Positions 43,162 through 59,963 of a stretch of DNA of 64,000 nt are shown here, one piece after another. Position numbers and translations under genes: made by a program. The DNA lies in NCBI RefSeq assembly GCF_024508315.1, contig NZ_CP101987.1:3844001-3908000 (forward strand). Reading direction: 5' to 3'. The first letter of the stretch is position 1, and the number at the start of each line of letters is the position of its first letter. The DNA is from Cellulomonas xiejunii. Lineage in GTDB: Bacteria > Actinomycetota > Actinomycetes > Actinomycetales > Cellulomonadaceae. The notes beneath the pieces are model-generated. The model was not told where the DNA came from. It saw only the letters and a list, made by a program, of their open reading frames with translations, and ran no database searches.

Positions 43162-43216
43162 CAATCTGACCGGTGAAACTTCACCCACAGGACGCCACCT
43201 TCGCGTAGCATCCCTA

Positions 43217-43250
43217 GACATACCGGCACGAAAGACATACCAGCACGAAC
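43217..43250. repeat. 17-bp tandem duplication
   Basis: GACATACCGGCACGAAA (43217-43233) is followed directly by GACATACCAGCACGAAC (43234-43250). They lie between the unknown gene's stop and the terminator at 43318. The 156-bp stretch 43162-43317 has no gene I can support. Confidence 0.6.
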
Positions 43251-43413: not shown

Positions 43414-43686
43414 TCACGCCAGCGACAGGAAGAGCTTCTCGAGCTTCGCGACGTCGAGGGTCGGCGCCTCGTCCGACGACTCCGGCTGCGTGAGGCACTG
43501 CCGCATCCCCGACGCGATGATCGCGAACCCGGCCCTGTCGAGCGCGCGTGACACGGCGGACAGCTGCGTGACGACGTCCTCGCAGCTGCTGCCCTCGTCG
43601 AGCATGCGGATGACGGCCGTGAGCTGCCCCTGTGCCCGCTTGAGCCGGTTGCTCACCTTGGTCATCTCGCCGGGGTCAAGCTCCAC
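43414..43686 (-). CDS. CsoR-family repressor, CstR-like (persulfide-sensing pattern)
   Basis: 90 residues from GTG 43686, preceded by GAGGAGG. All-helical CsoR/DUF156 protein (VSNRLKRAQGQLTAVIRMLDEGSSCEDVVTQLSAVSRAL). The two cysteines, in SCEDVV and MRQCL, are 29 residues apart, the spacing of CstR Cys31/Cys60 and of CsoR's two Cys. The copper-binding His four residues before the second Cys is Gly here. Loss of that His with both Cys kept is the CstR persulfide-sensor pattern. Co-directional with a CoA-disulfide reductase/rhodanese gene. Contrast the complete Cys-His-Cys CsoR at 59607. Persulfide sensing is inferred. Confidence 0.85.
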   Translation of the reverse strand: MELDPGEMTKVSNRLKRAQGQLTAVIRMLDEGSSCEDVVTQLSAVSRALDRAGFAIIASGMRQCLTQPESSDEAPTLDVAKLEKLFLSLA

Positions 43687-43761
43687 GGTGTCCTCCTCGG
43701 GTCGTCGGCCCACCGTTGGCGAGCGCCGTGTCGTGGGTGGGGTGCGTCCACGTGTGTGGTG

Positions 43762-43878
43762 TCAGGGGCAGGTGCAATGCTGGTCCTTGGGCACGTCGGC
43801 CATCACGGCGTCGACGTGCATGCCGCAGCCGGTCCAGGTGACCTTGCCGCACCTGCTGCAACGGATGGGGCTGCACAT
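43762..43878 (-). CDS. 38-residue cysteine-rich protein
   Basis: Short gene from ATG 43878 with GAGGAG upstream; stop at 43762. The product begins MCSPIRCSRCGKVTWTGCG and ends DQHCTCP, with six cysteines (C2, C7, C10, C18, C35, C37) and two histidines in 38 residues, in a zinc-ribbon-like CxxC...C...CxC pattern. It sits between the CoA-disulfide reductase and the CstR-like repressor, on the same strand with 72- and 75-bp spacing. It could bind zinc or carry persulfide; no function is shown. Confidence 0.75.
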   Translation of the reverse strand: MCSPIRCSRCGKVTWTGCGMHVDAVMADVPKDQHCTCP

Positions 43879-43950
43879 GGTGGTGCTCCTCGGGGTTTCT
43901 CGTGTCGGGTGTGTCGGGTCGGTGCTGGGAGTCTGCGGGCGCGGGACGGT

Positions 43951-45684
43951 CTAGCGGCGGGTGAGGTCGGGGCGGGTGAGGTCGGGGCGGGTGAGGTCGG
44001 GGCGAGCAGCGACGAGGCTGAGCCAGCCGCCCGAGAGGTTCCGCGCGTCCATACCGTCCTGGAGCAGGACGCGGGTGGCGATGTAGGAGCGGACGCCGCT
44101 GGCGCAGTGCACGGCGACCGGTCGGCCGGCGGCGGCGTCCCGGACCTCGTCGAGCCGGTCGCGGAGCTCGGTGTGCGGGATGTTCAGGGCGCCCGGGAGG
44201 TGACCGCGCGCGAACTCGCCGCGCGAGCGGACGTCGAGGACGAGGCTCGTCGCCAGGACGTCGTCGAGGTCCCGCGCGTGCCACTGCGGCATGGTGCCGT
44301 CGAGGACGTTCTGCGCGACGAAGCCGAGCATGTTCACCGGGTCCTTCGCGGAACCGTACGGCGGGGCGTAGGCGAGCTCGAGCTCCGCGAGGTCGTCGGC
44401 GGTCATGCCGGCGCGCAGCGCGGTGGCCAGCACGTCGATGCGCTTGTCGACGCCCTCGCACCCCACGGCCTGGGCACCGAGCAGACGCCCGTCCGGCGCG
44501 AAGGTCGCCACGACGTGGACCTGCTGGGCGCCCGGGAAGTAGCCGGCGTGGTGCCCGGCGTGGATGCGGACGACCTCGTGCGCGATCCCGGCACGATCGA
44601 GCGCGGCCTGGCTCGCACCGGTCACAGCGGCGGTGAGGCCGAAGACGCGGACGATCGCGGTGCCCAGCACGGTCGCCTGGGGCGTCGTGCGGCGGCCGAG
44701 CATCGCGTCGGCGGCACGTCGGCCCTGACGGTTCGCCGGCCCGGCCAGCGGGACGGGCCCGGTGACGCCGGTGACGGCCTGCGTCACCTCGACGGCGTCG
44801 CCCACGGCCCAGATGTGCGGGTCGGACGTGCGCTGGTCGGCGTCGACCCGGATCGCGCCACGGGCACCGAGCTCGAGGCCGGCGTCGCGGGCGAGGTCGC
44901 TCGCGGGTCGGACCCCGACGTTGACCACGACGACGTCCGCGACGACCTGCGTGCCGTCGGAGAGCGCGACGCGCGCGGCACCGCCGTCGTCCGTGATGCT
45001 GCGCGCCGAGACGCCGAGGTGCAGGCCGACCCCGTGGGACCGGAGCTCGTCGGCGAGCAAGGGCGCGAGCTCCGCGTCGAGCGGGGGCAGCACGTGGTCG
45101 GCGAGCTCGACGAGGTCCACCTGCAGGCCGCGGGCCGCGAGCGCCTCGACGGCCTCCAGGCCGATGAACCCGGCGCCGACGACGACGGCCCGTCGGGGGC
45201 CGTCCACCGGGAGCTGGGCCACGCGGGCGGTGAGCGAGTCCAGGTCAGGGACCGTGCGCAGCGAGTACACGGCCGGGTGGTCGAGGCCCTCGATCGGCGG
45301 CGTCACGGCGACGGCACCGGGTGCGAGCAGCAGGGCGTCGTACCCGAGCTGGTAGGTGCCGTCGGCCGTCGCGACCGTGACGGTGCGCGCGTCGCGGTCG
45401 ACGGCGGTCACGCGGCTGCCGGTGCGGACGTCGAGCGCGAGCGCGGCACGCAGCGACTCGGGCGTGTGGAGCAGCAGGGCGTCGCGGCTCTCGATCTCGC
45501 CGGACAGGTGGTACGGCAGGCCGCAGTTGGCGAAGGAGACGTACTGCGACTGCTCGAGGACGACGATGGAGGCGGACTCGTCGAGGCGGCGGGCGCGCGC
45601 GGCGGCGCTCATGCCACCGGCTACCCCGCCGACGACGACGATGCGCCGGGGCGCGGGGGCGTCGGGAGCTGGTGTCGTGGGCAT
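43951..45684 (-). CDS. FAD-dependent CoA-disulfide reductase with C-terminal rhodanese domain
   Basis: 577 residues from ATG 45684; the start lies 6 bases after a -10-like TATGGT and has no ribosome site, so it is probably leaderless. N-terminal FAD domain (VVVGGVAGGMSAAARARRL), the CoADR active cysteine in FANCGLPYHLSG near residue 45, NADH domain VVVGAGFIGLEAVE near 150, dimerisation domain to ~440, then a rhodanese domain with active loop HCASGVRS near 545. CoADR-RHD enzymes reduce CoA persulfides and disulfides. The C terminus carries three PDLTR repeats. First gene of the persulfide-response unit. Confidence 0.92.
   Translation of the reverse strand: MPTTPAPDAPAPRRIVVVGGVAGGMSAAARARRLDESASIVVLEQSQYVSFANCGLPYHLSGEIESRDALLLHTPESLRAALALDVRTGSRVTAVDRDARTVTVATADGTYQLGYDALLLAPGAVAVTPPIEGLDHPAVYSLRTVPDLDSLTARVAQLPVDGPRRAVVVGAGFIGLEAVEALAARGLQVDLVELADHVLPPLDAELAPLLADELRSHGVGLHLGVSARSITDDGGAARVALSDGTQVVADVVVVNVGVRPASDLARDAGLELGARGAIRVDADQRTSDPHIWAVGDAVEVTQAVTGVTGPVPLAGPANRQGRRAADAMLGRRTTPQATVLGTAIVRVFGLTAAVTGASQAALDRAGIAHEVVRIHAGHHAGYFPGAQQVHVVATFAPDGRLLGAQAVGCEGVDKRIDVLATALRAGMTADDLAELELAYAPPYGSAKDPVNMLGFVAQNVLDGTMPQWHARDLDDVLATSLVLDVRSRGEFARGHLPGALNIPHTELRDRLDEVRDAAAGRPVAVHCASGVRSYIATRVLLQDGMDARNLSGGWLSLVAARPDLTRPDLTRPDLTRR
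43954..44003. repeat. 15-bp tandem repeat at the reductase C terminus
   Basis: GCGGGTGAGGTCGGG occurs three times in tandem and encodes PDLTR-PDLTR-PDLTR on the minus strand, the last residues of the CoA-disulfide reductase. Copy number may vary between strains. Confidence 0.75.
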
Positions 45685-45693
45685 GTCACCACC

Positions 45694-45709
45694 ATACCCC
45701 CGGGGGTAT
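45694..45709 (-). promoter_or_regulatory. CsoR/CstR-type operator before the CoA-disulfide reductase
   Basis: ATACCCCCGGGGGTAT is a 16-bp perfect palindrome of the C-tract/G-tract type known for CsoR-family repressors. Its 3' end overlaps the -10-like TATGGT (45691-45696 on the minus strand), six bases before the ATG. Nearly identical to the operator of csoR at 59581. Confidence 0.8.
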
Positions 45710-45819: not shown

Positions 45820-47865
<2,046 letters not shown>

Positions 47866-59580: not shown

Positions 59581-59597
59581 ATACCCCCTGGGGGTAC
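59581..59597 (+). promoter_or_regulatory. CsoR operator and promoter
   Basis: TACCCCC-T-GGGGGTA (59582-59596) is a perfect palindrome. The -10-like TACCTT (59595-59600) overlaps it and is followed by six bases and the csoR ATG (59607), so the message is leaderless and repressible by its own product. Same architecture as before the CoA-disulfide reductase. Confidence 0.85.
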
Positions 59598-59606
59598 CTT
59601 GTTCGG

Positions 59607-59963
59607 ATGAGCGTGACGCCAGCACCCTCGCACCCCGCCGTCGACGACCACGTGTCGCACGACGACGCACCCGACGCACCCGTCCACGGCTACACGCCCG
59701 CCAAGGACGAGTACCTGCGCCGGCTGCGCCGCGTCGAGGGGCAGGTGCGCGGCATCGCGCGCATGGTCGACGAGGACGTCTACTGCATCGACGTCCTCAC
59801 CCAGATCGCCGCCGTCACCAAGGCCCTGCAGGCCGTGGGCATCGGCCTCGTGGAGGACCACCTCGGCCACTGCGTCGTCGACGCGGCCCGCCAGTCCCCC
59901 GAGGCCGGCGCCGAGAAGGTCCGCGAGGCCTCGGCAGCCATCGCCCGACTCGTCCGGAGCTGA
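59607..59963 (+). CDS. csoR: Copper-sensing repressor CsoR
   Basis: 118 residues from ATG 59607. CsoR/DUF156 fold ([43 protein letters not shown]) with the complete Cu(I) triad: Cys in VYCIDV, then His and Cys in VEDHLGHCV at +25 and +29. A 35-residue acidic, His-containing N-terminal extension precedes the core. It should release DNA on Cu(I) binding and control copZ-copA downstream; its own operator is at 59581. Confidence 0.94.

Follow-up and report, generated by a model that had tools for sequence, protein, structure and literature searches.

A unit of three genes on the minus strand of the window, by which we mean the whole stretch of 64,000 nucleotides that was analysed, is best read as an operon under CstR control that handles reactive sulfur species and in which a 38-residue microprotein with six cysteines is most likely a zinc mini-finger handling sulfane sulfur. 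We put the probability of this reading at about 0.6. On the minus strand from 45709 to 43414, the order is operator, reductase-rhodanese, microprotein and DUF156 repressor. This agrees with the earlier note, which had described an enzyme, a small protein and a repressor behind one operator; all frames and the palindrome were recovered at the following positions, listed with two contrasting features outside the unit.

45694..45709, no strand: operator palindrome ATACCCCCGGGGGTAT, perfect over 16 bp, lying 10-25 nt before the CoADR start, fitting ATACC-N6-GGTAT
43951..45684, minus strand: enzyme of the CoA-persulfide reductase type fused to rhodanese (PF07992, PF02852, PF00581; 3nta, 8a56)
43762..43878, minus strand: six-Cys microprotein of 38 aa (GAGGAG ribosome-binding site upstream; conservation; AlphaFold2 model)
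43414..43686, minus strand (longer call from 43713): predicted CstR-type DUF156 repressor with Cys-Gly-Cys (PF02583; 7mq1)
59607..59963, plus strand, outside the unit: copper-type CsoR paralogue with Cys-His-Cys, CopZ-/CopA-like genes downstream
59581..59597, no strand, outside the unit: 17-bp operator ATACCCCCTGGGGGTAC ahead of the copper-type CsoR

The putative operon and its enzyme

The reductase-rhodanese, microprotein and repressor genes are treated as one putative CstR-controlled operon, a grouping that we somewhat favour although the intergenic gaps of 72 and 75 nt count against it. A terminator-like hairpin and a 17-nt repeat lie between the 3' end of the operon and a convergent gene. 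Scans for sigma-70 promoters and terminators found nothing, as expected in high-GC DNA. Two further observations concern the surroundings: two 17-nt direct repeats (AGACATACCRGCACGAA) stand side by side at 43216-43249, downstream of the convergent gene, and a divergent DUF255/thioredoxin-like gene of the YyaL type (45820-47865) lies 110 bp from the operator.

The enzyme (45684..43951, minus strand) has an ATG start and 577 aa, with the Pfam domains Pyr_redox_2 (PF07992), Pyr_redox_dim (PF02852) and Rhodanese (PF00581). The FAD/NAD(P) disulfide reductase part carries the active-site Cys in SFANCGLPY, and the C-terminal rhodanese carries its active Cys in the loop HCASGVRS. The best PDB relatives are 3nta (E = 3.7e-151) and the CoA-persulfide reductase 8a56 (E = 2.4e-147), both of them fused persulfide reductases. 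The enzyme had been described as a CoA-disulfide reductase fused to rhodanese. The fusion is borne out by the Pfam domains, whereas the name is not: the score of 408.4 bits against the CoA-disulfide reductase equivalog TIGR03385 falls below the cut-off of 578.8 bits, and because the nearest relatives are 3nta and 8a56, 'CoA-persulfide reductase type' is the better name. In Enterococcus faecalis a CoA-persulfide reductase is likewise under the control of CstR (PMC9405070), and the repressor and enzyme therefore form a unit of known kind. At its 3' end the gene carries three exact 15-nt tandem repeats (43956-44004), which give the C-terminus of the enzyme a repeated RPDLT.

Repressor and operator

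The repressor has the DUF156/CsoR fold (PF02583, E = 3.4e-22, above the cut-off). Of its two possible starts, 43713 and the GTG at 43686, the second is the likelier, with GAGGAGGACACC / GAGGAGGA before it. In an alignment with the copper CsoR of the window, C44 and C73 of the 99-aa frame, 29 residues apart, occupy the W and Y positions of CsoR, and Gly is found at the X position, where copper CsoR has a ligand His (Cys-Gly-Cys versus Cys-His-Cys). The best PDB match is 7mq1, which has the same Cys-x-Cys pattern in the alignment and carries a copper-sensor name in the PDB; we take it to be a CstR structure. All 63 DUF156 repressors adjoining the microprotein have Cys-(A/G/S)-Cys, and Cys-His-Cys was found in 0/63. 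The window also encodes a second DUF156 protein (59607-59963, plus strand) with Cys-His-Cys, followed by CopZ- and CopA-like genes, from which it follows that the genome keeps a separate copper sensor.

None of the marks of a copper CsoR (a Cys-His-Cys site, a 17-bp TAC-X9-GTA operator, copper efflux neighbours) was found for the repressor; as for CstR, it adjoins sulfurtransferase/persulfide genes with an operator fitting ATACCn6GGTAT. Sensing by the Streptomyces coelicolor protein ScCsoR requires Cys37 and Cys66, likewise 29 residues apart (PMC7533328). The assignment as a CstR-like repressor and predicted persulfide sensor is well supported at the level of sequence. The earlier note had equated the pattern of two Cys without His with CstR, which the Cys-Gly-Cys site and the match to 7mq1 bear out, and had called the genes a persulfide-response unit; the Cys-x-Cys pattern, the operator match, the reductase neighbour and the linkage to rhodanese, dioxygenase and TauE all point the same way.

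The palindrome ATACCCCCGGGGGTAT occurs once in the window, where 0.02 matches would be expected, and this is the sole exact copy in the 4.19-Mb genome. The operator at 45694-45709 agrees letter for letter with ATACCn6GGTAT, which is bound by the sulfane-sulfur sensor ScCsoR (SCO0620) of S. coelicolor (PMC7533328). Spacing was counted over RTACC-N5..9-GGTAY palindromes in CstR-linked loci (L037-L193) versus copper-CsoR loci (L212-L231). It was 16 bp in 182/195 palindromes of the CstR-linked loci, 15 bp in 12 and 17 bp in 1. Near the 20 copper-type CsoR genes from the same family, all 14 palindromes found had 17 bp. Published sites have the same two lengths: copper CsoR binds TAC-X9-GTA (PMC3902906), i.e. 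17 bp when the flanking A/T is counted, and the sulfane-sulfur sensor site has 16 bp (PMC7533328). The one-base difference occurs within the window itself, between 45694-45709 (16 bp) and 59581-59597 (17 bp). Such a correlation may reflect a one-base specificity code separating the sister repressors, a simple means that might keep two of them, present in the same cell, off each other's genes.

The microprotein gene and its distribution

The 117-bp microprotein gene (43878..43762, minus strand) has an ATG start preceded by GAGGAG and encodes 38 aa (MCSPIRCSRCGKVTWTGCGMHVDAVMADVPKDQHCTCP) with Cys at positions 2, 7, 10, 18, 35 and 37. It is a real, conserved gene under selection. Among 35 distinct short-form relatives, pN/pS, counted from single-step codon changes, was 0.20 in the microprotein frame versus 0.46-2.03 in the five other frames. 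A correctly spaced Shine-Dalgarno sequence (GGAG, GAGG or AGGA) precedes 144/174 relatives, versus about 11% at random places. As the earlier note had warned, the protein is easily missed, its homologues being left unannotated in most plasmid records. That note had also made its case depend on conservation of the small frame; besides the selection just described, the gene is present in 112/150 genomes of the family.

It was also found in 36/296 sampled genomes of the phylum and in many named genera, from Corynebacterium to Agromyces. The metagenome-assembled genome L121 was considered as a non-actinobacterial ('Acidobacteria') carrier and rejected: the sample drawn for its phylum holds the same contig places as that drawn for the window, and it is therefore probably an actinobacterium. 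Two forms were found: a short one of about 38 aa with a CxC end, as here, and a long one of about 54-62 aa with Cys-x-Gly-His and a tail such as GFFSRLFGR, of which an RLFGR-like version is kept in 119/132 long-form members. The two stand in tandem in some genomes; in L037-L040, L086 and L091 such a pair lies under one operator, divergent from CoADR. Four IMG/VR phage contigs of 34-38% GC (L206, L208, L209, L210) encode a version of 37-41 aa with all conserved residues, located away from sulfur genes; 2OG-Fe(II) oxygenase genes lie near it in L208 and L209. Since phages carry this length, the short form may be the old core. In L232 (420-533, minus strand) a second copy has TGA in place of Trp15 and a weak start, with the operator still upstream. 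Recoding of this TGA was rejected, because with a stop at Trp15 and a weak start the copy looks like a decayed duplicate.

Membership of the CstR regulon was assessed with loci chosen by microprotein similarity alone. The operator was found 27-85 bp upstream of the microprotein in 30/80 loci, about half of the loci having no operator close by, and exact operator copies numbered 54 in the 614,767 bp of these 80 loci versus 0 for a reversed-order control. The search for relatives of the small protein beside cstR or CoADR, proposed as a check in the earlier note, covered 119 neighbourhoods, with cstR near in 60 and CoADR in 46. Other recurrent neighbours were thioredoxin, a metallo-beta-lactamase/rhodanese protein of the persulfide-dioxygenase type, a single rhodanese, TauE, a YgaP-like rhodanese and DUF302. 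The free variation in gene order speaks against a single block that was simply inherited as a whole. A cluster of 136-aa small predicted membrane proteins with CxxC and no Pfam match also adjoins the microprotein in L038, L061, L066, L072 and L075.

Across the 150 genomes of the family, microprotein and CstR occur together in 106, the microprotein only in 6, CstR only in 5 and neither in 33, where CstR was called at a clear score gap (at least 54 bits versus at most 47 bits). Because the genomes are related, presence was shuffled within each genus; in 20,000 shuffles the joint cases reached at most 97, versus 106 observed. We consider it very probable that the microprotein belongs to the CstR regulon across Actinobacteria.

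In an alignment of 97 rows C2, C7, C10, G17, C18, G19, H21 and C35 are invariant, several of them being required by the search pattern. The closing position at 37-39 was not demanded by the pattern: it is Cys37 in 66/174 relatives and His37-39 in 108/174, and is never absent. Exchange of Cys for His is typical of metal ligands. The AlphaFold2 model, which is without metal, has a mean pLDDT of 90.7 and a pTM of 0.56, with strands at 3-6 and 13-16 and a helix at 22-28. On this model the hairpin turn would hold C7-x2-C10 and the start of the helix C18-x2-H21, an arrangement known from small treble-clef-like zinc fingers. Conservation of the Cys and His positions, together with the Cys/His exchange, makes metal binding likely, and C7, C10, C18, H21, C35 and C37/His may be guessed as the ligand set. 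Of the seven possible ligands a single zinc would use only part, so some of the thiols may be free for persulfide.

No family in Pfam, NCBIfam or PHROG was above cut-off for the microprotein, with only weak matches among the 97 relatives. PF14116 (YyzF), PF23477 and TIGR04129 are likewise very short and Cys/His-rich, and match single members at E values of about 0.03-0.06, which is chance level among 97; by the tests run they are a different family and were rejected. A PDB search gave no relative (best E = 0.025, cerato-platanin-like, a chance match), and Foldseek gave no fold match for the model, the protein being too short for Foldseek to be informative. A search confined to the open-access literature for the peptide motif or a CstR-linked microprotein returned nothing relevant, and an earlier description may exist in subscription papers.

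Proposed mechanism, alternatives and known systems

In the mechanism that we propose, the DUF156 repressor at rest would sit on the 16-bp operator before the CoADR start and hold down the whole operon together with its own gene. A rise in persulfides would lead to modification or crosslinking of the two Cys that stand 29 residues apart in it, and the repressor would leave the operator. Reductase-rhodanese, microprotein and more repressor would then be made, the last closing the loop. The NAD(P)H/FAD reductase-rhodanese would reduce substrates of the CoA-persulfide type. The microprotein would act as a one-domain zinc mini-finger, with C7-x2-C10 in the hairpin, C18-x2-H21 at the helix start and C35 with C37/His closing the site, and its remaining thiols might accept sulfane sulfur and pass it among low-molecular-weight persulfides, rhodanese, thioredoxin and the reductase. 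The derepression chemistry and the reductase activity we infer from the named families and papers; that the microprotein binds metal and hands on sulfur is deduced from its sequence and predicted fold. The earlier note had suggested a zinc or persulfide carrier; the role of sulfane-sulfur carrier, taken by itself, is a tentative proposal to which we give somewhat less than an even chance. Rather doubtful is the broader proposal that the microprotein founds an undescribed family of persulfide carriers, storing or shuttling sulfane sulfur, as an often self-operated core member of the actinobacterial CstR regulon with a zinc-supported thiol site, shared by some phages.

The microprotein could instead be a structural zinc-finger adaptor or regulator that tunes the reductase, the rhodanese or CstR without carrying sulfur. 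Its very short and stable layout with a conserved Trp and GCG would suit such a role, as would its adjoining different enzymes in different genomes, and the RLFGR-like tail of 119/132 long members could dock to a partner or membrane. It has no constant partner, however: it is found with CoADR, with a persulfide dioxygenase, or by itself with an operator of its own; as the partners vary, a general sulfur role fits better than one partner, and we regard the adaptor as rather unlikely.

Quite improbable is a zinc (or thiolate) buffer that would shield zinc sites at times when the metal is sequestered by sulfide or polysulfide. High Cys density and the Cys/His swap would fit it, and sulfide triggers a zinc-limitation response in Staphylococcus aureus (PMC5480029), but strict conservation of the spacing and of the Trp/GCG core sets it apart from typical metallothioneins, and zinc regulators are absent from the recurrent neighbours. 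Less probable again is that the six Cys hold an iron-sulfur cluster and make the microprotein a redox or sulfur sensor: RnfB-type Fe-S motifs are matched by a few members of the family, but weakly (best E = 0.0075) and below every curated cut-off, and the CxxC-x7-CxxH spacing with Cys-to-His exchange suits zinc better.

A copper-responsive unit of an ordinary CsoR and a copper-binding peptide would share the repressor superfamily and a similar GC-tract operator, and copper and sulfur chemistry overlap, but it is highly improbable and was rejected on the Cys/His pattern and operator spacing, since Gly replaces the ligand His here, the His is absent in 63/63 adjacent repressors, the window also encodes a distinct copper-type CsoR next to CopZ/CopA, and 17-bp operators in 14/14 copper-type cases stand against 16 bp in 182/195 CstR-linked ones. 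That the 38-aa frame is spurious is next to impossible given its in-frame pN/pS, ribosome-binding sites and deep conservation, even though chance open frames abound in high-GC DNA and most plasmid records do not annotate the homologue.

Returning to the reading of a CstR-controlled operon with a sulfur-handling mini-finger, we note that CstR regulons are among the main defences of bacteria against sulfide and persulfide stress, with enzymes and transporters as the members known so far. The microprotein may be a missing part: it is bound to CstR as tightly as the enzymes are, has its own operator in many genera and goes without a name in the libraries that were searched. Should it carry sulfane sulfur, this would explain how, in these bacteria, persulfide is passed among rhodanese, dioxygenase, thioredoxin and low-molecular-weight thiols.

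Pairs of such a repressor and enzyme are of a known kind; what is new is the microprotein, a conserved regulon member for which the search of libraries and open-access papers gave no match. The ScCsoR (SCO0620) circuit of S. coelicolor (PMC7533328) has a CstR-type DUF156 repressor with Cys 29 apart, the ATACC-n6-GGTAT site and genes for sulfane-sulfur removal. Unlike here, those genes are a persulfide dioxygenase, a rhodanese and a sulfite transporter, and the text consulted reports neither a microprotein nor a CoADR-rhodanese. Closer in its enzyme is the cst-like operon of E. faecalis (PMC9405070; PDB 8a56), where CstR stands over a CoA-persulfide reductase fused to rhodanese; it adds the sulfurtransferases RhdA and RhdB, and no six-Cys microprotein is reported in the text consulted. 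The CstR/cst operon of S. aureus (PMC5480029) shares the dithiol repressor, which senses per/polysulfide there, but has as its targets cstA, cstB and sqr, a route of H2S oxidation unlike the genes found here. The copper CsoR of Streptomyces lividans (PMC3902906) and the CsoR at 59607-59963 share the DUF156 superfamily and the GC-tract operator style with our repressor, and differ from it in having Cys-His-Cys and TAC-X9-GTA (17 bp), where the operator here is TAC-X8-GTA (16 bp).
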